Assembly: GCA_023129715.1 (NCBI GenBank)
Contig: JAGMBO010000096.1
Span: 1 to 50,341, forward strand
Reading direction: 5' to 3'
Source: Candidatus Eiseniibacteriota bacterium
Lineage (GTDB): Bacteria > Eisenbacteria > RBG-16-71-46 > CAIMUX01 > WJJG01
Length of the DNA stretch: 50,341 nt
Shown here: piece after piece, positions 9,251-41,910 of the stretch
Position numbering within the stretch: the stretch's first letter is position 1
Layout of the letters: the number at the start of each line of letters is the position of its first letter
Notes under the pieces: generated by a model
Databases searched by the model: none
What the model was told of the DNA's origin: nothing
What the model saw: the letters and a program-made list of their open reading frames with translations, nothing else
Translations under genes and position numbers: made by a program

Positions 9251-12193
9251 TCAGCGCAACCGCACCAGCTTCTTCGTCACCCAGGGCAGATTCTCGAACT
9301 CCAGCCGGCAGAAGTAGATCCCCGCCGGCGCCATCGCCCCCGATTCCTGTCTGCCCTCCCAGACGATCTCGTGGGTACCGCGGGCCCGCTCTCCAACCGC
9401 AAGCAAGCGCACCACCCTGCCGGCAACATCGCAGATCGAGAGGGTCACCCGCCCAGGCCGGGGCAGTTCGTACTGCAACCGCGTGACACGACCGAAGGGG
9501 TTGGGTCGACTCGGCCGGAGCATGACCGGTGACGCGTAGCTCGGTGAGGCCTCGAGACCGGCGGCCTCGGGAACGTGGACCGCAAGGGTGATCCCCCCCG
9601 TCTGGCGCACCAAACCGCCGCCGGGCAGCTGCAAGAAGCAGTCGACGTGCACGTATCCCAGCGTGTCGTGGGCCGTCGGCGTCACCGTGATCTGAGCCAC
9701 CTGGATCTCGCCGGGACCGAGTGGAATCGCAACGCCCACGGGGAGGCTCAGCTCGGCATCCCAGAAGCGCGCATACTCCTCCTTCTCGATCTCCAGCCGG
9801 ACCTCCATGGCGGTCGGCTCCGGGTTGACCAGCTGGAACTGCAGCCCCAGAGGCTCACCGACGCCGCCCTCGAGATGGAACTCTGCCAGGGTCCCGTAGT
9901 TGTTCTCGGCCTGCGGCCAATCGCTCTCCGGCGGATCGGGCGGATAGTCGATTGCGGTGAAGAGCATGAAGTGGGGTTCGCCGAAGGAATTGATCGGGGG
10001 CAGGGTCACCGGAAGCGGTCCGAGCCGCGCACTCTGGCCGAAACCGAGCACCGGCAGGGTCAACGATCCGAGATAAAGGTCACCGGGCGCATACTCCGCC
10101 ACGCTCGGGTCACCGCAGTAGACATGCACCGGGTCACCGCTCGGCAGGGTGTTCATGCCGAAGTTGCGGACGGTGACATAGACCTCGACCGTGCCGCCAC
10201 CTACATCGTAGGACTCAAGGCTCGATCCGCCTCCGCCGCCACCCCCCCCCTGCCACCAGCGATCGCTGTAGGGCCAGTCGGCATGGCCCGGGTTGTTGAT
10301 GCCCGGCGGCTGGCCCTGAGTGATCTGCTTCTGATCGCTGCGCTCCCCCCCGATCTCATCGGCATAGTCGGCGTAGGAGTGCGACGAGACGGAAGGACTG
10401 AGCGTTCCCCATGCGGTGCCGGCGATCGTTCCCGTCACCGGCGCCCCTTGCCACCCCGGCCCCATCAGATCCCAGGTGCTGAAACCCCAATCGCCAGACT
10501 GGGCAATGCCCGCCACGGCATGGACCTGCTCGCCCCCGTCGAACCCGATCTGCGTCAAGGTCAACTCGGCCTGCACATCGGTCACCGGAAAGAGCCCATT
10601 CAACGGTGCCGGCCCCGTGTAGCTGACCAGCAGCGTGGCGTCGAAGGCAGTGCTGTAATCCCAGGTCGGCGGGCTGAGGAGGATCAGTTCCCAGGGCGCG
10701 ACGAGCACGAAGCGCTTGCTGGTCCAGACCTGGTCCCAGAAGTACTGCATCGGAATCCAGCCCCCCTGGCAGACGGCCGGATCGTGGATCTGAAAGGCGG
10801 GTTGGGCGGAGGTATTCGGGCCGTAGTTCCCATAGTTGTCATAGCCGATGATCAGCACGGCATGTCCCGTAGTCGTTTCCTCTGGGGGGCAGTTCGTGAA
10901 ATCGACCGACTCCGGATCGTAGGCATCTTCGAAGATCTGCTCGCAGTAGTCCTCGGGGGGATTGATGAAGGCGATGACCGGGTAACCCGAACCGAGAAAG
11001 GTCTCGAGCTCCTCCGGCCGATCGGTGCCCGCCTCATCGACTGTATCGGCGGGGGCAACTTCGGTCCAGATCGAGTCGAAGGCCGCATACCCGATGTCGC
11101 GCCAGCTGTAGCCCCAGGCGCCCGGGGCGCGGGCGTAGCCCTGCGGAGGACACCCCTGGCGGATCAGCGTCAGCGCCTGGGTCGCGTGCGAGAAGTGTCC
11201 CGCGCGGCGCAGGTCGTCGACCACCGTCCCGAGCCAGAGGCTGTCGCGACCGTTGACTCGATCGTTCGTATTGGCGCCTGCCTCGATCTCTTCCTGCGGC
11301 CCGGGCGGCGTCACCGCCGGGTTGGGCAGCGCATCGCCGCAGCGGTCGAAGACCATCTGCAGACAGGCAACCGCGCAGCGGCCGTTCTTGCGCGCGGGGC
11401 AGCAGGGCTCGCTCAGCGCGGTTGCGGTCGTGTACTGCCCATGAAAGGGCACCGTCGGCGGGTGTTCCCACGAAGTACAGCCATTTTCGGAATCCCAGTC
11501 CAGCCCGGGAACAGCATAGCTCTGGGGCGGCAGGAAGCCGCGGATCGAGAAGTCGTCGTACCAGGCGGTCATGTGATTGGTGAAGGCGTGGTTGTCCTCG
11601 AACCAGAGATTGGTGCTCGCGGTGACGCCCGCCTGGTAGGTCACCGTCGCCACATGGGCGGCGTCGAGGAAGACGCTATACTCGCGCACCCGCGGCCGGC
11701 AGTGAATGGTCACCCAGCCCCAGGTGTCGGCGGCCAGATACTCCCCGAAGTCGACATCGTTGATCGGTGTGAAGTTGTTGGTTCCCGATGGGTCGTAGCG
11801 CATCGGATAGGCTGGTGTGTCGATCAGCAGGCGAATGTGGCCGAAGATCAAGAAGCGATCCCAGTGAAACGTCTCGTAACGAAAGGCGAACTGAACTGTG
11901 TAGTCGTGGGTCAAGTCGATCGGGATCGTGCGGGAATGGGCGAAGAGCCCCTCGTCCCACAACGCCGATCCGGTCACCTTGAACGAGTTGCTGCCTGTAT
12001 TGGCAATGGTGTTGTCGACGCCGTACGACGCACCGACGACAGCGTCGAACCACCAGCAGCTATGGTTGCCGTCCTCGAACCCATCCGACCAGAGTTCGAT
12101 CGTCGCCCGAGCTGGCGCCGCCCCGCCCAATCCCAACATGACCAAGATGGCGGCGGCCACCGGAAACACAATCGCTCGACTTCTCGCAGTCAT
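9251..12193 (-). CDS. secreted C39-like cysteine peptidase domain protein with FlgD-like C-terminal domain
   Basis: A 980-residue exported protein. Signal peptide MTARSRAIVFPVAAAILVML ending near APARA, then a LamG/concanavalin-like jelly-roll (about 30-220). A papain-like C39-type domain shows Cys in GRCAVACLQMVFD (about 272), His in TGHAVLIIGYD (about 443) and Asp in IHDPAV (about 468). Beta-sandwich regions follow, with a Gly-rich run. The C-terminal FlgD-like/type-A sorting-like domain has RPNPF, GRVTLSICDVAGRVVR and GIYFCRLE. ATG 12193 follows AAGGAGGAGGTG; the open frame continues upstream, but this site and the signal peptide fix the start. Substrate unknown. The C-terminal domain suggests cell-surface delivery as in the FCB group. 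Confidence 0.8.
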   Translation of the reverse strand: MTARSRAIVFPVAAAILVMLGLGGAAPARATIELWSDGFEDGNHSCWWFDAVVGASYGVDNTIANTGSNSFKVTGSALWDEGLFAHSRTIPIDLTHDYTVQFAFRYETFHWDRFLIFGHIRLLIDTPAYPMRYDPSGTNNFTPINDVDFGEYLAADTWGWVTIHCRPRVREYSVFLDAAHVATVTYQAGVTASTNLWFEDNHAFTNHMTAWYDDFSIRGFLPPQSYAVPGLDWDSENGCTSWEHPPTVPFHGQYTTATALSEPCCPARKNGRCAVACLQMVFDRCGDALPNPAVTPPGPQEEIEAGANTNDRVNGRDSLWLGTVVDDLRRAGHFSHATQALTLIRQGCPPQGYARAPGAWGYSWRDIGYAAFDSIWTEVAPADTVDEAGTDRPEELETFLGSGYPVIAFINPPEDYCEQIFEDAYDPESVDFTNCPPEETTTGHAVLIIGYDNYGNYGPNTSAQPAFQIHDPAVCQGGWIPMQYFWDQVWTSKRFVLVAPWELILLSPPTWDYSTAFDATLLVSYTGPAPLNGLFPVTDVQAELTLTQIGFDGGEQVHAVAGIAQSGDWGFSTWDLMGPGWQGAPVTGTIAGTAWGTLSPSVSSHSYADYADEIGGERSDQKQITQGQPPGINNPGHADWPYSDRWWQGGGGGGGGSSLESYDVGGGTVEVYVTVRNFGMNTLPSGDPVHVYCGDPSVAEYAPGDLYLGSLTLPVLGFGQSARLGPLPVTLPPINSFGEPHFMLFTAIDYPPDPPESDWPQAENNYGTLAEFHLEGGVGEPLGLQFQLVNPEPTAMEVRLEIEKEEYARFWDAELSLPVGVAIPLGPGEIQVAQITVTPTAHDTLGYVHVDCFLQLPGGGLVRQTGGITLAVHVPEAAGLEASPSYASPVMLRPSRPNPFGRVTRLQYELPRPGRVTLSICDVAGRVVRLLAVGERARGTHEIVWEGRQESGAMAPAGIYFCRLEFENLPWVTKKLVRLR

Positions 12194-12330
12194 CACCTCC
12201 TCCTTTCGCGACACCCGCCAGTATGCGGCAATCCAGCTCACCCGCCGAAAACTCCCCCGCGGCCCGCATGTCCACCAGAGAGTCACGCTCTTCGCCCGGC
12301 AGGGCGGGCGACCAGCATGGCCGGTTGCCT

Positions 12331-12360
12331 GGAACCGCGAGACTCGGGTACCATTAGTGT
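12331..12360 (+). promoter_or_regulatory. possible ECF-type promoter before the sigma gene
   Basis: GGAACC (12331-12336) matches the -35 preference of many ECF sigma factors and lies about 65 bp before the sigma start. The matching -10 is not clear (ATTAGTGTT is the candidate area), so this is only a suggestion of autoregulation. Confidence 0.25.
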
Positions 12361-12399
12361 TGAGGGCTCACCTTCACTTGGTGGCCGGCGCGGTCTCCC

Positions 12400-13098
12400 G
12401 TGGCTCGTCTCGTTCCAGCAGTTTCTTTTCCGGAGACCCGAATTCCTTGCAGAGATTCGCCCCCGCCGGAGACCCTCTCGCAGCGCTCACGGCCTCCCCA
12501 TCCTGGAGCGTGCAGGATCGCACCGACCGAACCGATACCGGCCATCACCGAACTCCTCGCGCGAGCGCGCGACGGAGACAGGCTTGCGGAAAACACCCTC
12601 TTCGACCATCTGCATGCAAGAATCCTCGCGGTGGCGAAAAGACGGATCTGGGACGAGGAGGCGGCGGCTGATCTCGCCCAGGAGACGATGCGCACGGTCT
12701 GGGAGAAGTACCGTCACGCAGCCCTGGCGCAGGGGCTTCTGCCTTGGGTGTTCACAATCCTGCGCAACAAGGTCGGCAACTACCTGAGACGGCAACGCAC
12801 GGAACGCGCCCACCTCGCCACCGGCGTCGATGTGACCACGCGCGCCGGCGGCGGGCTCGCGCCTGACGGCACGCTGGATGCAATCGAGTTGGCCGCCGCC
12901 CTGACAGAGGCAATCGAGGCAATGCCCGACGAGTGCCGCAAGGTCTTCCGGCTCCTGCTCAGCGGCGCCAATCGCGAGCAGATCCGCGCGGCATTTGCCG
13001 GAACGCCGATGGGAACGATCGACAGCCGAATCTCCCGCTGTCGCCGGCGCCTGCTGGCCCTCCTCGCCGCGGGCCCGGTGGGAGGGGCAAAGCCATGA
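12400..13098 (+). CDS. ECF-family RNA polymerase sigma factor
   Basis: Alternative sigma factor of 232 residues. Region 2 runs from LARARDGDRLAENTLFDHL through AADLAQETMRTVWEKYR to LPWVFTILRNKVGNYLRRQR. Region 4 is EAMPDECRKVFRLLLSGANREQIRAAF followed by MGTIDSRISRCRRRLLALL. The roughly 47 residues before region 2 are Pro/Arg-rich and poorly sigma-like. GTG 12400 is the only usable start I can find in frame and it lacks a good ribosome site, so the true N-terminus is uncertain. Its stop overlaps the anti-sigma start (ATGA), the usual arrangement for a co-regulated pair. Confidence 0.88.
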   Translation: MARLVPAVSFPETRIPCRDSPPPETLSQRSRPPHPGACRIAPTEPIPAITELLARARDGDRLAENTLFDHLHARILAVAKRRIWDEEAAADLAQETMRTVWEKYRHAALAQGLLPWVFTILRNKVGNYLRRQRTERAHLATGVDVTTRAGGGLAPDGTLDAIELAAALTEAIEAMPDECRKVFRLLLSGANREQIRAAFAGTPMGTIDSRISRCRRRLLALLAAGPVGGAKP

Positions 13099-13886
13099 GT
13101 GCACAGTATGATCCGCATAGCCACGCGCAGATCGCGCCCATGCTCGCGCGCTACGAATTCGGTTGTCTCTCCGCCGACGAGCGCCGAGCCTTCGAAACCC
13201 ACCTGCTGGCTTGCGACCGCTGCTTCGCCGAACTCGCGCGCGGCAACGAGGTGCGTGCCGCGATGCAGGCGGCGGCACCCCGTCTGCTGGAGGCGCTCGA
13301 TCGCGAGCCTCGATTGCGCGGCCGACTCAGATGGCGCTTGCCCCGCGGCGCCCGGCTCGACCCGCGTGCCCTCTGGCCGCGAGTCGCCCTCCCGGCCGCC
13401 ATCGCCCTGCTGATCCTGCTCGTGGGGGTCCGCGAGACCCACCAGGGAAGGGATCTTCGGGAGCTGGCGACCTTTCCCCGCCAGGGGATTGCCGAGTCGG
13501 CGCGCCGAGGGGCGGTCGACGGCGATGGGCTGCGCGAGTTACTCATCGCCGGCAGCGGCTATCTCGAGACCGGCCGCTACGAGGAGGCCGAGCAACACCT
13601 CCGTGCGGCCCTCGAGCGCAATCCTGAGTCGGCGACCGCAGCCTACCTGCTGGGACTCTGTCTCGCGCTCGAAGATCGCGCCAATGATGCCCTGCCCCAT
13701 CTGCGCTCCGCGGTTGCGGGGGCCGATGCCTCCCTGCGACCGGCGGCCCTCTGGCTCTTGGGCAACGCCTATCTCAGGGAGGGTCACATGCCGCGGGCGC
13801 GCGAGGCCTTGGAATCCCTCGCGGCTGAAGAGAGCCGCTACCGCACCGCCGCGATCGACCTGTTGCGCTCCCTGGCTGCCGACTAG
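13095..13886 (+). CDS. transmembrane zinc-finger anti-sigma factor with TPR domain
   Basis: A 263-residue membrane protein predicted to hold the adjacent sigma factor inactive. The N-terminal ZAS-type zinc finger has HLLACDRC (H-x3-C-x2-C; His36, Cys40, Cys43) after LARYEFGCLSADERRAFE. One transmembrane helix about 97-112 (VALPAAIALLILLVGV). The C-terminal part (about 140-260) is a set of TPR helices (YLETGRYEEAEQHLRAALERNP, AAYLLGLCLALEDRANDAL, AALWLLGNAYLREG), expected outside the cytoplasm. The ATG overlaps the sigma stop by 4 bp. Followed 185 bp later by the TPR-CHAT gene. The exported TPRs could be the sensing or protease-docking face. Confidence 0.85.
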   Translation: MSAQYDPHSHAQIAPMLARYEFGCLSADERRAFETHLLACDRCFAELARGNEVRAAMQAAAPRLLEALDREPRLRGRLRWRLPRGARLDPRALWPRVALPAAIALLILLVGVRETHQGRDLRELATFPRQGIAESARRGAVDGDGLRELLIAGSGYLETGRYEEAEQHLRAALERNPESATAAYLLGLCLALEDRANDALPHLRSAVAGADASLRPAALWLLGNAYLREGHMPRAREALESLAAEESRYRTAAIDLLRSLAAD

Positions 13887-14071
13887 CCCCTGGCAGAAGT
13901 CAGACCACGTTGAGAACGGGGCTCTTGAGCCAGCCTCCTGCTTGCTGCCGCGATTCGGCACAGCTCCATGCGGCGAGCGGGCCACCCCGCGCAGCCGCGT
14001 GAATGATTGCCTGCCACCCATCGATCCCGCATAGTCTGAAATCGCCACCCATGGCTGACGGAGACCAGGGC

Positions 14072-17000
14072 ATGCTGGCACGCGGAACGATCCGCTCGCG
14101 GCGGCGCCGCCTCTGGGCGAGGGACCATCGATCTCTCCAGCCAGGGCTGCGCCCGCGTCGGGTGGGCATTGCCCTGCTCGGCTGTTGTCTGGCCTCCCTC
14201 CTCACCGCCCCGCAGACCCCCGCCACCACCCCGCGGTCGATCCTGCGCGACCGGCTGTGCGCTCACCTGGCGGCGGGTTCCGTGGACTCGCTGCGCCTGC
14301 TGATGCGCGACGAGCGGCTCGCGAGCCAGAAGGCGATCCGTCGGCTTCTGCTCGACCGGGCGCGTCAATTGCAGCGGAGCAGCGAGGATTCGGCCCAGGC
14401 AACGCTCGCCTGCGCCGGCCGCCTCGCAACGATCTACGCCGAGGAGTTCGGCGATTCATCCTGTCTGACGCTCACCGCCCACCACACCGCGCTCGCCCCT
14501 GGCCTGCTGCCGGCAGTGCTCGAGGGTTGGCAGCGGTACGCTGAAGCCCAGAGCTACTATGGGCGCTCGCTCCCCGACGAGGCCCGCGCGCTACTAGAGG
14601 AGGCCCTCGCCCGGGCTAGCGAGACGGGGGATGCCCATCTGCAGGCCTATGCCCTCTCCCTGGCCGGTTCCTGTCACTGGATGCAGGGCGCCTACGAGGA
14701 GGCACGGGAAACCTACCGGGCGGCCCGCGCGGAGGCACGGCGTGCCCGAGATCCGATTCAGGAAACCCGGCTACTGCGCAACATTGCCCTGACCTACCAG
14801 CTCCAGCACCGCCAGGCAGAGGCCATCGAGACCTTCCACCAGGTCCTCGCCGCCGCGGGCCGCTCCGGGGATCGTCGCCTCCATGCGCAGGCGCACAACG
14901 ACATCGGCATCTATCACCTCCAGCAGGGAGAACTCGAGGCGGCTCTCGAGAAATTCACCTGCGCGCTCACCCTCGCCCGCCAGGAGAGCCTGCCGGACCT
15001 CGAGGGCAATGTCCGCCAGAACCTCGGCATCGCTCGGGGACAACAGGGCCGGTATACAGAGGCACTGGCGAACCTGCAGGCCGCACTCCTCCTAGCGCGT
15101 GACCTGGGCAAGCGCCGCCAGGAGGTCGGCGCGCTGCTCAACATGGCCGGGATTCATGCAGAACTCGAGGATCACGCCCAGGCCCTGATCCTGCTCAAGG
15201 AGGCGTTGCCGATCGCCGAGCAGTTGGGCGCCGCCGATGTCGCCGCGCAGATTCGCAATGAGATCGGCGAGGTCTGTCGCCAGCTGGGCCGTCCGGAAGA
15301 GACGCTGCGCTATTGTCGGCAGGCCCTTCCCCTGCTGCGCAGCAGGGGAATCCTGCGCAGTCAGTCGGTCGCTCTGCACAACATCGGGGCGGCGCTGATC
15401 GCGCTCGGCCGCCTCGAGGAAGCCGAGCGGGCCTTTCGCGAAGCAGAAGCCCTGCTGCAGAGATCGGGAGACCGCATCGGCCGCGTCTCGATCCTCGCCG
15501 ACCTCGCCGAGCTCGAGATGCAGCGCGGTGCGTTCCCGGCCGCTGCCGCCGAGCTCGCCCGCGCCCAGCCTCTCGCCGATAGCCTCGCCCATCCCCTCCT
15601 GCTGGGGGAGCTCGAGTGCCTGCGTGGCCGGCTCCATGCGCGCGCCGGCGAGATGGAGGAAGCCGACAAGCGGTTCCGCCACGCGCTCGCCCACGCCCGC
15701 GCACTGCGCTCCCCGAACCTCCTCTGGCGCGCCCTCGGCAGTCGTGGCCGGTGCCGGCTGGCGGCCGGTGATCCGGCAGCGGCGCGCGAGTACCTTACGG
15801 AAGCGGTGGAACTGGTCGAGTCGCTGCGCGGACAACTCGGTGGCGAGACCTTCCGCCTGGCTTTCCTGACCAACAAACATGAGCTCTATGTCTCGCTCGC
15901 CGACGCCTGTCATTCCCTGGCTCGCCGCACCGATCAGCGGCCGCGACTCTACCGCGAGGCCTTCGACGCGGCCGAACGGGCCCACGCCCGCGTGCTGCTC
16001 GATCTGCTGGCGCGCCCCGCCGCCGGCGCGGAAAAACGCATCGATCCCGCCCTGGCTCGGCACAGCCGCCAAATCCGCGAACGCCTCGCCCAGCTCCAGA
16101 CCCTGCTCGCCGAAACCCTCGCCCGCGACACCTGGGATGGGGCCCGGGTCGACTCGCTCGAGGGCGAGCTGGGGCGCCTCTGCCGAACCTATCGAGAAGT
16201 CCGTGATGAGATCTGTGCCCGCCATCCCAGCCACGGTATGCTCATCGGTCAGCGCCAGCCCCTCTCCGCCGGAGCCGTCCGTCAACGTGTGTTGCTTCCC
16301 GGCCAGGTCCTGCTCGAGTATCTCAGCGGCCGCGAGCAAGGCTTCATCTTCCTCCTCACCGAGGACACGCTCCAAGTGGAACGCCTTCCGGTCGGCGCCG
16401 ATTCGCTGGCGCGCTTGGTCAACCGCTACCGGGCGAACCTGCTCGCCGACCGGCCCACCGCCGCTCCCTCGGCTCCCGAGCCACAGCCAGGCGGCGACGC
16501 GGGCAACGATCTGGTCGCGCTGCTCTGGTCGCCGATTGCCGCCAGCGTCCCGCCGGAGGCACGCCTGCTGATCATTCCCGATGGCCCGCTCTTCGGCCTC
16601 CCCTTCGCCGCCCTGCCGGTCGAGTCCGCGCCTCTCGTCGCCCGGCATGCGATTGCGCTGGCTCCGTCGGCCAGCGTGCTCGACCCGGCGCTCACCGTCT
16701 CCGCCCCACTGGATGCCACGCTGCTGCTGGCCGTCGGCAATCCGGCCACATTCAGGGACCGCGCCCTGCTCGACGACACCCGGCGGCCGGCCGAGGCGTG
16801 GCGCTTCGGAGCCCTGCCCTTCGCGGAGCAAGAGGCCCGGCAGGTCGCCAGCTACTTCCCACAGGCGCGCCTCTTGACTCGCGAGGAGGCGACCGAGGAG
16901 GCGGTCAAGGCACTCGCCCCCCAGTGCACGCACCTTCATTTCGCAACCCATGGCATGCTCGACGAGCAGGAGCCTCTGCTCAGCGGCCTCGTGCTGGCTC

Positions 17001-17494
17001 AGGATGACGATCCCGCAGAAGATGGATTCCTGCAGGTCGACGAGATCCTGGCACTCTCTCTGGCTGCCGATCTCGTCGTGCTCTCCGCCTGTGAAACCGG
17101 GCGGGGACGCATCTCGGGCGGTGAGGGCGTCCTGGGATTGAGCCGCGCATTCCTGCATGCCGGCGCGCGGGCCCTGCTGATCTCTCTTTGGGAGGTCGGC
17201 GATCGTGATTGTGTCGAGCTGATGGATTGCTTCTACACGAATTGCATCGCCGCGGCGCAAGCTCCTGACCTCGCGCTGCGCAGGGCCCAGCTCGCGCTCC
17301 GCCGACAAGGGGTGCCCGCCTCGGTCTGGGCGGCCTTCATCCCCCTGGGCCGCATGGAAACGCCCAGGGCCGCAGGCGCCCGCCCGGCGCGCCTCGGGTG
17401 GTTTCCACTGTCTGCCACGCTGGTGCTGATTCTGGCCGCGGGCCTGGGAATCCGGCAGCATCGCCGGCGCCGCCGAGGTCACTCAACCCGCTAG
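14072..17494 (+). CDS. membrane-tethered TPR-CHAT caspase-like protease
   Basis: An 1140-residue protein. Basic N-terminus and hydrophobic segment VGIALLGCCLASLLTA (about 31-46), which is a signal anchor or, through LLGC, a lipoprotein signal. A long TPR array spans about 90-600 (AQAHNDIGIYHLQQGELEAA, ALHNIGAALIALGRLEEAE). A C-terminal CHAT domain has His960 in HFATHGMLDE and Cys1007 in VVLSACETGRG, the caspase-like dyad. Near the end are a second hydrophobic helix (LSATLVLILAAGLG) and an Arg-rich tail. Both helices predict the TPR and CHAT parts outside the cytoplasm. Start chosen at ATG 14072 after GGAGACCAGGGC; ATG 14003 and 14051 are alternatives. It follows the sigma/anti-sigma pair, suggesting proteolytic control of the anti-sigma. 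The last 12 bp overlap the convergent glycosyltransferase gene. Confidence 0.9.
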   Translation: MLARGTIRSRRRRLWARDHRSLQPGLRPRRVGIALLGCCLASLLTAPQTPATTPRSILRDRLCAHLAAGSVDSLRLLMRDERLASQKAIRRLLLDRARQLQRSSEDSAQATLACAGRLATIYAEEFGDSSCLTLTAHHTALAPGLLPAVLEGWQRYAEAQSYYGRSLPDEARALLEEALARASETGDAHLQAYALSLAGSCHWMQGAYEEARETYRAARAEARRARDPIQETRLLRNIALTYQLQHRQAEAIETFHQVLAAAGRSGDRRLHAQAHNDIGIYHLQQGELEAALEKFTCALTLARQESLPDLEGNVRQNLGIARGQQGRYTEALANLQAALLLARDLGKRRQEVGALLNMAGIHAELEDHAQALILLKEALPIAEQLGAADVAAQIRNEIGEVCRQLGRPEETLRYCRQALPLLRSRGILRSQSVALHNIGAALIALGRLEEAERAFREAEALLQRSGDRIGRVSILADLAELEMQRGAFPAAAAELARAQPLADSLAHPLLLGELECLRGRLHARAGEMEEADKRFRHALAHARALRSPNLLWRALGSRGRCRLAAGDPAAAREYLTEAVELVESLRGQLGGETFRLAFLTNKHELYVSLADACHSLARRTDQRPRLYREAFDAAERAHARVLLDLLARPAAGAEKRIDPALARHSRQIRERLAQLQTLLAETLARDTWDGARVDSLEGELGRLCRTYREVRDEICARHPSHGMLIGQRQPLSAGAVRQRVLLPGQVLLEYLSGREQGFIFLLTEDTLQVERLPVGADSLARLVNRYRANLLADRPTAAPSAPEPQPGGDAGNDLVALLWSPIAASVPPEARLLIIPDGPLFGLPFAALPVESAPLVARHAIALAPSASVLDPALTVSAPLDATLLLAVGNPATFRDRALLDDTRRPAEAWRFGALPFAEQEARQVASYFPQARLLTREEATEEAVKALAPQCTHLHFATHGMLDEQEPLLSGLVLAQDDDPAEDGFLQVDEILALSLAADLVVLSACETGRGRISGGEGVLGLSRAFLHAGARALLISLWEVGDRDCVELMDCFYTNCIAAAQAPDLALRRAQLALRRQGVPASVWAAFIPLGRMETPRAAGARPARLGWFPLSATLVLILAAGLGIRQHRRRRRGHSTR

Positions 17495-20226: not shown

Positions 20227-22977
20227 CTAGGCGCGTTCGCTCTGGCCGTGCCAGGGACGAGCCGGACCGGGCCGCCCTCCCGGGTAGCCGGAGTTCCGCC
20301 GCTCGGCGCCCGCGGGCCGGCGTTCGGTGAGACGGTTGAGGTTGCGTCGCAGGCGCTTCTCGATCTCCGGCGGCAGGGGTTTGAAGGTGCGCCAGGCCTC
20401 GGCGGGGAAGACCTCCTCCCCATCGGCACGCGAGCGCACGGCGTTCCAGCCGCGGCCTTCCCAGGTGCGCCCCGCCTTCTTGGGCACATAGGGCTCCTTC
20501 TCAAGCAGGTGGTGGAGCAGGATCAGCGCCGCTTCCTTGTCGGGAATGTGACCGCGGCGCGAGCTGTCGGGGTCATTACTCATCTGCGCCAGCACCGGCG
20601 CTCCCACGCAGGAAGGACAGCCCGCCTCGCAGGGGCAACTGGTGACCAGCTCACAGACCGCCGCCATGAGCACCTCGATCATCCCGAAAGCCTTCTGCGC
20701 AAAACCCAGCCCGCCCGGGTAGCGATCGTAGAGGAAAATCGTGGGCATGCCGGTGCCGCGCGAGTCGACGCTGCTGCCGACATCCATCACATCGCACATC
20801 GCATGGAGCGTGATCACGTCCCCCAGCACGTTGGCGATCCCCCAGAGTCCCTCGACCGGTACGCGACCATGGCGCGTCACCGCCGCCATCGCCGCGGGCG
20901 GGGGCGTCACCCAGCAGCCCTCGGTCTCCAGGGTCTCCACCGGCAAGTCGATGGGACCAAAACCGAGCGACTCGCGCGTCTCGAACCGGATTTTCTTGAA
21001 CATGTAGACCTTCTCGCTCACCGCGAGCGGTCCGAAGCCCCTCTCGGCCACGCGCCAAGTCCGCTCCTGCTCGGTCTCCAGAATCCGGATCCGGCTGTCG
21101 GAGATCGACTGGGTGTAGTACTCCAAGTTGACTGGATGCACGTAGGCGACCCGCTCGTTGAGGTCGAGGTGATCGACGAAGTAGCTCAAGCCCTCGTGCA
21201 AGTAGATCCCCTGGGGATGGAGCTGCGCGTAGGCGCTCGCCTCGTCGAGCGTTCCGATCACGCGCCCCCTGGGCGTCGCGCCGCCGCGCAACGCCGGCGC
21301 GTTCGCCCCCCCCGGCGGCGCGCTCGCATCGACGATGAGATAGACGTTGTCACTCGCGTTGCGCAGGCTGACATCGGCGGCCGGATAGGCGTTGGTGCTG
21401 AAGTACCAGCGCCCCTTGATGCCGCGCACCTCCCCCGCCTCCTGGAGGATCTGCAGGATCGCCGGTGCATACTCGCCGAAGAGCCCCTCATCATGGGGCG
21501 TCAACGGCAACTCGTAGGCCGCCGCCCGCAGATGCCCCAGCAAGATGTGCGGGTTCTGCGGATCGATGACCGCATGCTCGGGTGACTGGCGAAAGAAGTA
21601 CTCGGGGTAGCGCATCAGATACTGATCGATCGGCGTGTTGTGGGCGATCAACACGGCCAAGGAGTCCTCGCTGGTGCGCCCCGCGCGCCCCGCCTGCTGC
21701 CACGTGCTGGCAATCGTCCCGGGATACCCGACCAGCAGGGAAACGTCGAGCGAGCCGACGTCGATCCCCAGCTCGAGGGCATTGGTCGAGATGACGCCGG
21801 AGAGCTCGCCGCGGAAGAGCGCCTGCTCGATCTCCCTCCGCTCCTCGGGCAAATAGCCTCCCCGGTAGGATCGCAGGCGCCCCGCCGCGCCCCCGCCATC
21901 TTCCCGCAGTTTCTCCTGACTGTAGCGCAAGAGCACTTCCGCCACCTGGCGCGCGCGCACGAAAGTGATCGTCTGAAACCCCTCGCGCACGAAGCTCGCC
22001 AACAGATCGCGCGCCTCGATGTTCGAGCTGCCCCGGTCCATCGTCGTCGTACTCAACACCGGCGGGTTCCAGAGAACGAAGTGCTTGCGCCCGCGAGGCG
22101 CACCATCCTCGGCGATCAGTCGGAACGGCAGCCCGGTCAATTCCTCGGCCAGTTCCCTGGGGTTGGCGATCGTCGCGCTCGAGGCCACGAAGCGCGGCTC
22201 GCTCCCGTAGCGGCGGCAAATCCGTCGCAATCGCCGCAGCACATTGGCGACATTCGACCCGAAGATGCCCCGGTAGACATGGATCTCGTCGCAGACGACA
22301 TAGCGTAGCTGCGAGAAGAACCGCGCCCAGCGTGCATGATTCGGCAGGATGCCCGAGTGAAGCATATCCGGGTTGGTTAGCAGTATCGCCGCCTCGTCGC
22401 GCAGCCTGCCGCGCAGCCGCGGCGGTGTATCCCCATCGTAGGTTCCGGCGACAAACCCGAGATCGTCGGACGCGCCTTCCTGCAGCGTGAGCAGCGATCT
22501 TAACTGATCCTGGGCCAGCGCCTTTGTCGGGAAGAGCAACAGCGCGGTGGCCTGCGGCTCGGCCAGCCACGCTTCGAGCACCGGCAGCTGATAGCAGAGC
22601 GTCTTGCCGCTGGCCGTCCCGGTGACCACGACACAATGCTCGTTCTGGCGCACGCACTCCACCGCCGCCGCCTGGTGGCAGTAGAGACGTTCGATTCCCG
22701 CCGCGGACAACGCGCTCGACAACGCGGCGGGCAGCGGGTGGCGCAGCTCGCCCCACACCGCATCGCGGGCCGGAATTTCCTCAGCGTGCACCAGGGACTG
22801 CTGGCCCCGGGCGAGATCTTCGAGGTGGGTCAGGAGGTCCCGCTTGCTCCGGTTCCGATCTGCGGCCGGAGCGCCGCGGCCGCGCTTGCGCCCCCGCCCC
22901 TTGCCCCGCCGCGACGCCGCCCTCCGGGGCTTGCTCCCGCGATCGACTCGCGATCCCTGCGCTGGTGTGCGATCCAT
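20227..22977 (-). CDS. mrfA: MrfA/YprA-like DEAD-family helicase with DUF1998-type zinc site
   Basis: Superfamily 2 DNA helicase of about 916 residues. Motif I TGTASGKTLCYQL, motif II DEIH, motif III SSATIANP, motif VI QQAGRAGR. The C-terminal DUF1998-like region carries the four-cysteine CPCEAGCPSC that binds zinc in MrfA. In Bacillus subtilis MrfA works with MrfB in a UvrA-independent repair of mitomycin C damage. The gene for an MrfB-like nuclease is just upstream on the same strand. The basic N-terminus (Arg/Lys-rich, about 60 residues) is unusual. ATG 22977 is the best guess; the frame is open to 23154 with other starts. A 3D-structure or family search should confirm. Confidence 0.88.
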   Translation of the reverse strand: MDRTPAQGSRVDRGSKPRRAASRRGKGRGRKRGRGAPAADRNRSKRDLLTHLEDLARGQQSLVHAEEIPARDAVWGELRHPLPAALSSALSAAGIERLYCHQAAAVECVRQNEHCVVVTGTASGKTLCYQLPVLEAWLAEPQATALLLFPTKALAQDQLRSLLTLQEGASDDLGFVAGTYDGDTPPRLRGRLRDEAAILLTNPDMLHSGILPNHARWARFFSQLRYVVCDEIHVYRGIFGSNVANVLRRLRRICRRYGSEPRFVASSATIANPRELAEELTGLPFRLIAEDGAPRGRKHFVLWNPPVLSTTTMDRGSSNIEARDLLASFVREGFQTITFVRARQVAEVLLRYSQEKLREDGGGAAGRLRSYRGGYLPEERREIEQALFRGELSGVISTNALELGIDVGSLDVSLLVGYPGTIASTWQQAGRAGRTSEDSLAVLIAHNTPIDQYLMRYPEYFFRQSPEHAVIDPQNPHILLGHLRAAAYELPLTPHDEGLFGEYAPAILQILQEAGEVRGIKGRWYFSTNAYPAADVSLRNASDNVYLIVDASAPPGGANAPALRGGATPRGRVIGTLDEASAYAQLHPQGIYLHEGLSYFVDHLDLNERVAYVHPVNLEYYTQSISDSRIRILETEQERTWRVAERGFGPLAVSEKVYMFKKIRFETRESLGFGPIDLPVETLETEGCWVTPPPAAMAAVTRHGRVPVEGLWGIANVLGDVITLHAMCDVMDVGSSVDSRGTGMPTIFLYDRYPGGLGFAQKAFGMIEVLMAAVCELVTSCPCEAGCPSCVGAPVLAQMSNDPDSSRRGHIPDKEAALILLHHLLEKEPYVPKKAGRTWEGRGWNAVRSRADGEEVFPAEAWRTFKPLPPEIEKRLRRNLNRLTERRPAGAERRNSGYPGGRPGPARPWHGQSERA

Positions 22978-23243
22978 GATGTCGATCCTGATCCCGTGGC
23001 TCCGGGTCTCGTCGACGTGCCGCCGTGCCCGCCTGCCGGTGTGGGGCGGGATCCGGACATCGGTCGCACGAAACGCCGCCGCGCCCGAGAATGCCGGGGG
23101 CGAAAGAGAACCCATCCGAGACTGCCATTCTAGAGAGACACCGGATTCGGTCAACGAGCTTCTGCGCGCGCCGGCTCGATGGCCTTGCCGGCGGAGTCTC
23201 GATCACTATCCCGCAACCCGGCGGCGACCGGCGCACCTTCCGG

Positions 23244-26382: not shown

Positions 26383-27141
26383 CTAGCCCTCGTGATTGCA
26401 GACCAGCAACCGGACACCGTCCTGGAAGGAGACCTGGATCTTGCCGTCGCCGACCTCGTGCACGACGATCCCCAGGCCGAATACCTTGTGATTGATGACC
26501 TCGCCCTTGCTGTAGCTCCCGCGCATCACATAGCTGCGGACACCATCCAAGTCGGCCATGGCCATCAGATCTTCCCAATCGCCCCCCGGGGAAACGGCCC
26601 CGCCCACGCGGCCGCGTGCTTTTCTGGTTCGCGAGCGAGGCGCGGCACCCGTCTTGCGCTTCGCCGCCCCCCCCTTGGAACGCGCATCTTTCTGCTTCGA
26701 CGTTGAGGTCTTGGGCGTGGGACTCCCCGCCGCCCTGCCTGCCTTGGCAACCGGCTGCGGGAACTTGGGCGGCTTCTCCCGTTGCCCGGCCTTCTTGCCG
26801 CCGCCCGGAGCAGCCGCCTTTCGCGAGGTTCTCTTGCCAGCCACCGCTGAGCCCGGCGACGGCTTCTTTCTGCTCGGCAATGGGCGCTTGCTAGAAGGGC
26901 TCTTCTTCCCCGCCCGCTTGGTGACCTTCTTCTTGGCGATCCCCGCCCGCTTGGCCACCTTCTTCCTGGCGCTCCCCGCCCGGTTGGTGACCTTCTTCCT
27001 GGCGCTCCCCGCCCGGTTGGTGACCTTCTTCCTGGAGGTCCCCGCCCGCTTGGCGACCTTCTTCTTGGCGGTCCCCGCCCGCTTGGCGGCCTTCTTCCTG
27101 GCCGTCCTCACCGGTCGCTTGGCCCTCTTCGTTGTAGCCAC
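26383..27141 (-). CDS. histone H1-like basic protein with Tudor/SH3-like C-terminal domain
   Basis: A 252-residue protein in two parts. Residues 1 to about 180 are Lys/Arg/Ala-rich, including six tandem 11-residue repeats of the form ARKKVAKRAGT (residues 14-79), like bacterial histone H1 tails, and should bind DNA. The C-terminus (about 205-252) reads YSKGEVINHKVFGLGIVVHEVGDGKIQVSFQDGVRLLV. It resembles the SH3/Tudor-like module at the end of UvrD/PcrA helicases (GDxVxHxxFGxGxV), which contacts RNA polymerase. GTG 27141 follows GGAGGAAGACCG. Function is inferred: a nucleoid- or transcription-linked architectural protein. Confidence 0.8.
   Translation of the reverse strand: MATTKRAKRPVRTARKKAAKRAGTAKKKVAKRAGTSRKKVTNRAGSARKKVTNRAGSARKKVAKRAGIAKKKVTKRAGKKSPSSKRPLPSRKKPSPGSAVAGKRTSRKAAAPGGGKKAGQREKPPKFPQPVAKAGRAAGSPTPKTSTSKQKDARSKGGAAKRKTGAAPRSRTRKARGRVGGAVSPGGDWEDLMAMADLDGVRSYVMRGSYSKGEVINHKVFGLGIVVHEVGDGKIQVSFQDGVRLLVCNHEG
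26905..27102 (-). repeat. six tandem 33-bp repeats encoding the H1-like tail
   Basis: Six 33-bp units in frame, each encoding 11 residues. Units 3 and 4 are almost identical in DNA (both centred on the CGCCCGGTTGGTGACC stretch), pointing to recent slippage or duplication, so repeat number may vary between strains. Confidence 0.85.
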
Positions 27142-41653: not shown

Positions 41654-41698
41654 CGACCTCTCCCCCATCTGCGCCTTCTCTCCCAAGCACCGCTGCGC

Positions 41699-41820
41699 AA
41701 GAGCCTAGAGGCTATCCCCCCCTATAAGAACGTAGAGACGGCCCCTCCGGAAGAGCATGCAGTCCACCCCCCTGGAAGAGCCTAGAGGCTGCCCCTCCGC
41801 AAGAGCCTAGAGGCTAGGCT
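41699..41820. repeat. 25-bp degenerate tandem repeat array
   Basis: Five copies: 41699-41725 (27 bp), 41726-41750, 41751-41775, 41776-41800 and 41801-41820 (partial). The consensus starts AAGAGCCTAGAGGCT and ends CCCCTCC. The AGCCT-AG-AGGCT core is a short inverted repeat kept in copies 1, 4 and 5. It lies in the 317-bp region between the divergent AlkP-type and MDR genes. Confidence 0.85.
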
Positions 41821-41910
41821 TCGGATGCGTCAAGCCAGCCCCACCCACCAGATTTCCCACACCCCCACGAAGCCCCGCCGCTCGCGAACCCCCTCACCCA
41901 TCCGGTCGCA

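Follow-up and report, generated by a model that had tools for sequence, protein, structure and literature searches.

A recurrent, CRISPR-free association of ECF sigma factors, their regulators and predicted TPR-CHAT proteases in Candidatus Eisenbacteria

Introduction

The coupling of a TPR-CHAT protein to an extracytoplasmic function (ECF) sigma factor is a theme partly known already from two systems, DdvS-DdvA and Craspase. DdvS controls a CBASS/CRISPR island (PMC12288465), and in Craspase the sigma inhibitor Csx30 is cleaved by Csx29 (PMC10028731). In a third system, the anti-sigma CalpT is cleaved by the protease CalpL (PMC11417357). Here we describe a cluster of three genes on the + strand (12400-17494) of a 50,341-nucleotide stretch, positions 1 to 50,341 of contig JAGMBO010000096.1, which will be called the window. 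Its source is the genome of a Candidatus Eiseniibacteriota bacterium (GCA_023129715.1; 186 contigs, 4.83 Mb), and the genes encode an ECF sigma factor, a zf-HC2 anti-sigma and a TPR-CHAT protein. An earlier analysis of the bare letters, the sequence-only reading, had proposed that the CHAT protein cuts or binds the exported part of the anti-sigma to release the sigma factor. The association of sigma factor, regulator and CHAT protein is a recurrent, CRISPR-free module and no one-off, and the CHAT protein most likely acts on the sensory domain of the regulator in a CRISPR-free family of such modules.

Results

The three-gene module of the window

The features of the module are as follows.

12400..13098, + strand: ECF sigma factor (Sigma70_r2, E 5.4e-10; TIGR02937, the sigma70-ECF NCBIfam, above cut-off; PDB ECF sigmas, 2e-11).
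13095..13886, + strand: transmembrane (TM) anti-sigma with zf-HC2 domain, one TM helix and predicted extracytoplasmic TPRs (Pfam zf-HC2 4e-5 and TPR_16 3e-10; AlphaFold2 (AF2) model with TPR matches in Foldseek).
13131..13223, + strand: zf-HC2 domain of the anti-sigma, H-x3-C-x2-C (PF13490).
13368..13433, + strand: TM helix of the anti-sigma, residues ~92-112 (hydropathy 2.14 at residue 92).
13530..13826, + strand: TPR repeats of the anti-sigma, predicted extracytoplasmic (TPR_16 and related families, 3e-10; AF2 pLDDT >90).
14003..17494, + strand: TPR-CHAT protein, 1163 amino acids, predicted to be exported (CHAT 3.4e-65; TPR_12 8e-43; AF2 pLDDT 82, pTM 0.75).
14162..14230, + strand: putative export signal, a hydrophobic segment after an Arg-rich stretch, residues ~54-70 (hydropathy 2.27).
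14498..15982, + strand: TPR superhelix (Pfam TPR stretches; helix pairs in the AF2 model).
16499..17350, + strand: CHAT (caspase/separase-like) protease domain (PF12770, 224.6 bits).
16949..16951, + strand: predicted catalytic His983 in LHFATHG (His in 100/100 CHAT genes with the column).
17090..17092, + strand: predicted catalytic Cys1030 in VVLSACETG (Cys in 101/101 CHAT genes).
17396..17491, + strand: C-terminal TM helix (~1132-1152) and Arg-rich tail, the tail predicted cytoplasmic (hydropathy, sequence; architecture common to 13 CHAT proteins).

The sigma factor was assigned to the ECF group by its regions 2 and 4, the lack of a large region 3 and the adjoining zinc-domain anti-sigma with a TM helix; the match to region 4 is weak (16.7 bits, below the 25.7 cut-off). 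Its open reading frame has no in-frame ATG, and the start at 12331 assumed by the sequence-only reading is unsupported: the earliest start is the GTG at 12400, a trivial difference, and a later non-ATG start is also possible. The remaining architecture described in that reading was recovered. The ATG of the anti-sigma gene (13095) lies inside the TGA stop of the sigma gene, forming ATGA, and the CHAT gene follows on the same strand 116 bases after the end of the anti-sigma gene, with its start at ATG 14003 (14051 or 14072 as alternatives). The zinc finger of the anti-sigma, its single TM helix and its exported TPRs were supported by Pfam, hydropathy and AF2 as a predicted topology. The finger residues H36, C40 and C43 (H36-x3-C40-x2-C43) are invariant across 13 aligned anti-sigmas, and the finger is judged from its sequence to be a cytoplasmic domain of the sigma-holding kind, with sigma binding and inhibition predicted.

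The N-terminal hydrophobic segment of the CHAT protein, its C-terminal helix and its Arg-rich tail (RQHRRRRRGHSTR) were likewise found as described. Because of the export-type segment, the C-terminal helix and the Arg-rich tail, the CHAT and TPR parts are predicted to lie outside the inner membrane, the side also predicted for the TPRs of the anti-sigma. The catalytic dyad, numbered 960 and 1007 in the earlier reading from ATG 14072, is intact and becomes H983 and C1030 when counted from ATG 14003. A CHAT domain with a His/Cys dyad and a TPR arm puts the protein in the caspase/separase clan, and dyad and modelled fold together point to a TPR-CHAT protease with predicted peptidase activity. That the parts occur here without CRISPR also held: no CRISPR-like array was found in the window, and a scan of seven proteins around the module gave no match to Cas7-11.

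Linkage of CHAT and sigma genes

Both gene types are multi-copy in the source genome, which has 29 matches to sigma-70 region 2 and eight CHAT genes, so that unrelated genes could have met by chance. Against this, an ECF sigma gene lies within 2.5 kb of five of the eight CHAT genes, where about 0.25 would be expected (binomial 1.5e-6). When the neighbourhood was searched across genomes, as the sequence-only reading had suggested, the trio was found to recur. In a sample of 101 CHAT genes from the Candidatus Eisenbacteria phylum, 59 have an ECF sigma gene no more than 2.5 kb away; among those whose flank reaches at least 2.5 kb on both sides, the count is 36/54. The density of sigma genes is 151/Mb within 2.5 kb of CHAT versus 14/Mb at 2.5-6 kb, a 10-fold drop. 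Relative to CHAT, the sigma gene is upstream on the same strand in 31 cases, downstream on the same strand in 17, divergent in 6 and convergent in 5. The anchored architecture of the window is shared by 13 CHAT proteins, 12 of them sigma-linked, in two gene orders and frequently with overlapping genes. For linked genes, the pairwise distances between sigma factors correlate with those between CHAT proteins (r 0.59), with a contribution from shared species descent; since this value was reached in 0/5000 permutations, the sigma/CHAT pairs appear to travel together.

In the closest relative, genome G003, the CHAT orthologue (43% identity along its full length, 55% within the CHAT domain) shares one 6.6 kb contig with the sigma orthologue (54% identical). 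Between them lies a gene which we take to be DUF2061-like, and the gene order is changed relative to the window. As sigma and CHAT nevertheless stay on one contig, linkage was kept through rearrangement. Retention of the sigma/anti-sigma pair with loss of the CHAT gene, the outcome that the earlier reading had named as speaking against itself, was thus not seen in G003, where sigma and CHAT occur together. The neighbourhood statistics, with the local enrichment over 101 loci and this conserved linkage, refute the chance explanation, to which we assign a negligible probability. A search of the 101 CHAT proteins for an anti-sigma/CHAT fusion found none: the H-x3-C-x2-C finger was absent from the first 350 residues of each. 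Three sigma-linked CHAT proteins (L101, L115, L118) have a lipobox-like signal (e.g. LAGC, LSGC) and are probably lipoproteins.

Outside the phylum, the same trio was found in Cyclobacteriaceae (L160), Litorilinea (L195) and Myxococcaceae (L203). In the first of these (L160:158-7939) the sigma gene and a TM anti-sigma-like protein are followed by two tandem exported TPR-CHAT genes; the anti-sigma-like protein has a TPR-like tail by eye, without a Pfam match.

Regulators and compartments

A scan of the gene that follows sigma, made at 54 linked loci, distinguished three kinds of regulator. The first is a membrane anti-sigma whose outer domain is made of TPRs, as in the window, of a short domain judged by eye to be FN3-like, or of DUF4384. 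The second, found in 12/54, is a membrane kinase, and the one examined carries DUF4384 beyond the TM helix. The third is a soluble zf anti-sigma; when the soluble anti-sigmas were profiled against all PDB chains, Csx30 included, there was no match to Csx30 and only a weak one to RsiW (E 0.02). All three kinds occur in the source genome, where four further modules were seen: C125 (L039) and C127 (L042) are of the membrane kind like the window, C159 (L044) is soluble and C177 (L041) has a kinase. Modules with a Hanks kinase and an exported TPR-CHAT protein include L103, L104, L106, L114, L116, L120, L125, L136 and others, some with extracytoplasmic DUF4384. From the kinase modules it follows that the shared element is sigma and CHAT, not anti-sigma and CHAT.

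By hydropathy and inspected starts, the CHAT protein is exported in 43/44 loci where the regulator spans the membrane; where the regulator is soluble, CHAT is cytoplasmic in 10/11. CHAT and regulator thus agree in compartment in 53/55 loci overall and in 46/46 co-directional ones. The switches on the CHAT tree are all in the expected direction or unchanged. The loci outside the phylum agree as well: in Litorilinea a soluble regulator accompanies a CHAT protein without a signal, and in Cyclobacteriaceae and Myxococcaceae a TM regulator accompanies one with a signal.

DUF4384 is common to the kinase partners and some anti-sigma outer domains, and elsewhere it occurs with kinases and orthocaspases (PMC6426788). 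This would suit a CHAT protein that serves as sensor or co-receptor, its TPR arm docking on the outer TPR, FN3-like or DUF4384 domain of the regulator and holding or releasing it by shape, while the protease site acts on CHAT itself or on a third protein. The CHAT region of DdvA, placed within the anti-sigma chain, is also in line with such a role. However, a dyad conserved without exception fits catalysis better than scaffolding alone, and we regard the sensor role as quite improbable.

Structural kinship

The model of the window CHAT protein found its best structural match in 8rw5, DdvA (Foldseek; E 2.8e-17, TMt 0.55), followed by separases and Csx29. A profile of the anchored branch likewise ranked DdvA first in the PDB (9.5e-12), above Csx29 (1.5e-7), and a profile of the cytoplasmic branch matched the Craspase TPR-CHAT protein (2.5e-14) with no match to DdvA. 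The branch profiles therefore indicate that DdvA resembles the membrane branch and Csx29 the cytoplasmic branch. With the NCBIfam Csx29 family, three members of the cytoplasmic branch scored 45-51 bits, under the cut-off of 300; the window protein scored 16.3 bits, and no CHAT protein of its own genome exceeded the cut-off.

Neighbouring genes

The gene divergent from the module is listed below.

9251..12286, - strand: secreted protein with C39-peptidase-like and FlgD-Ig domains (Pfam).

It lies outside the module core and is possibly a candidate regulon member. In G003 its orthologue (50% over 971 residues) is found near the anti-sigma orthologue, so that a secreted protein of this type is kept beside the anti-sigma in two genera (window 9251-12286; L217:2772-5741). 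Shared end sequence gave no support for the idea that, in G003, the contig with the anti-sigma orthologue directly adjoins the one with CHAT. FlgD-Ig proteins also occur near modules L042, L069 and L128.

Secreted FlgD-Ig proteins near several modules are among the points that favour the main rival explanation, in which CHAT is an output. The sigma factor, freed by general site-1/site-2 proteases, would turn on the neighbouring TPR-CHAT gene, the CHAT protein would be an envelope effector or a housekeeping protease with other substrates, and the match in compartment would mean no more than that an envelope stress regulator produces an envelope protease and a cytoplasmic regulator a cytoplasmic one. 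It is common for an autoregulated ECF sigma gene to have targets next to it (general knowledge), and CHAT is sigma-linked whatever the regulator, kinases included, on either side of sigma and in either orientation. A sigma gene upstream of CHAT in a co-directional array is, however, equally expected for a regulatory CHAT protein, and in the known relatives TPR-CHAT is joined to the anti-sigma itself (DdvA) or acts on the sigma inhibitor (Csx29). An output role is on balance rather unlikely.

No defence genes adjoin the module of the window, and a defence-island reading was rejected, since the PADLOC matches were generic TPR, HD-domain and helicase cross-hits. The helicase (20227-23154) is of DEAD-box type with a C-terminal cysteine cluster, and its cross-hits, to BrxHI and Dru helicases, seem to be of this generic kind. 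A 33-base repeat in six copies (26874-27137) lies inside a Lys/Ala-rich, histone H1-like gene (26383-27141), and an inverted-repeat-like intergenic element at 41688-41823 has three copies of AAGAGCCTAGAGGCT. A sigma-70 promoter scan and an Rfam scan gave nothing useful.

Discussion

The proposal that the CHAT protein acts on the anti-sigma to release the sigma factor stands in part. It is supported by the recurrent module, the same predicted compartment, the conserved dyad and the kinship with DdvA and Csx29, which couple TPR-CHAT to an ECF sigma factor. As originally worded it was too narrow: since kinases are the regulators in 12/54 loci and the cytoplasmic branch pairs a soluble CHAT protein with a soluble anti-sigma, the function of CHAT has to extend beyond the cutting of an exported anti-sigma.

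We propose that the three genes of the window form a self-contained ECF sigma signalling module in which the CHAT protein binds the outer domain of the anti-sigma and then cuts or reshapes it, so that sigma is released; by analogy with the known systems, we give this even chances. An outside signal, either a ligand or an envelope protein that the TPRs have caught in a misfolded or damaged state, would cause the CHAT protein to bind the outer domain, and the bound anti-sigma would undergo a site-1-like cut by CHAT or a change of shape. The trimmed anti-sigma might then be destroyed by housekeeping proteases, and the freed sigma factor would turn on target genes; some of these may encode secreted proteins, the divergent C39/FlgD-Ig gene being one example. 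In the sister modules, CHAT would act on the outer domain of the kinase or, in the cytoplasm, on the soluble anti-sigma. Action on the regulator, simplest as a first cut, is inferred from DdvA, Csx29/Csx30 and CalpL/CalpT. A wider claim, made tentatively and with some doubt, is that a widespread CRISPR-free family exists in which CHAT, in the compartment of the regulator's sensory domain, cuts the regulator to release or activate sigma, with DdvA and Craspase as specialised offshoots.

Several observations weigh against this proposal. The regulators of 12 loci are kinases, and CHAT cannot there have the task of cleaving an anti-sigma; this weakens the literal claim of an anti-sigma protease and leaves a role on the outer domain of the regulator unaffected. 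No sigma gene was found near 42/101 sampled CHAT genes, and CHAT relatives from other phyla are mostly unlinked (sigma-linked in 7/79 loci, from a scan with a four-row CHAT alignment that favours close CHAT relatives, which are in many cases cyanobacterial). The anti-sigma orthologue of G003 (50% identity) does not adjoin sigma and CHAT, whose contig is without it; it is on another contig, cut at its end. The agreement in compartment (Fisher 4e-9) is not significant once corrected for descent, with only 2-3 independent switches on the CHAT tree, and its two mismatches, L071 and L088, are both divergent pairs. In addition, signal-peptide and TM calls came from hydropathy and inspection, and the choice of several starts was made by eye when the type of regulator was already known.

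If the proposal is true, Craspase and DdvA, described separately, join one family of protease-gated sigma switches, and a caspase-fold enzyme is added to the proteases that initiate destruction of an anti-sigma. It would also be the first general non-CRISPR role for TPR-CHAT proteins, of which there are eight in the source genome and up to 15 in a relative. Since the partnership recurs across the phylum without CRISPR, cutting or sensing of a sigma inhibitor by TPR-CHAT proteases may be a general bacterial route of gene activation. With three genes, one catalytic cysteine and one reporter, the module is compact enough for a direct test.

Comparison with known systems

Regulated intramembrane proteolysis of the RseA/DegS and RsiW type resembles the proposed mechanism in that a single-pass anti-sigma receives its first cut outside the cytoplasm (general knowledge; cited in PMC10028731). 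It differs in that the site-1 proteases, DegS or PrsW, are not caspase-fold, and neither partner has TPRs. EcfK-PknS, an ECF sigma factor with a transmembrane Hanks kinase, resembles the sigma/membrane-kinase pairing of the sister modules, and the abstract on that system names no CHAT partner (PMC13147305). CalpL-CalpT-CalpS shares the cutting of an anti-sigma by a protease, proposed in the module of the window, and the freeing of an ECF sigma factor (PMC11417357); CalpL, however, is a Lon-type protease that carries a SAVED domain, lacks TPR-CHAT and is activated by cA4. Craspase/CASP (Csx29, Csx30, CASP-sigma) contains a TPR-CHAT protease, an ECF sigma inhibitor and an ECF sigma factor as one set (PMC10028731), but it acts in the cytoplasm and is switched on by target-RNA-bound Cas7-11, whereas the window protein is predicted to be exported. 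Csx29 is resembled more by the cytoplasmic sister modules (45-55 bits).

The form of the module appears to be undescribed: in the searched literature, outside of which lay the ECF reclassification and the DdvA papers, CHAT and an ECF sigma factor were joined only in Craspase. DdvS-DdvA of Myxococcus xanthus (PDB 8rot, 8rw5) likewise combines an ECF sigma factor, a transmembrane anti-sigma and a coupled TPR-CHAT region. In DdvA the CHAT region lies within the anti-sigma chain, whereas in the window it is a separate protein, predicted to be exported and anchored at its C-terminus, and the anti-sigma has TPRs of its own.

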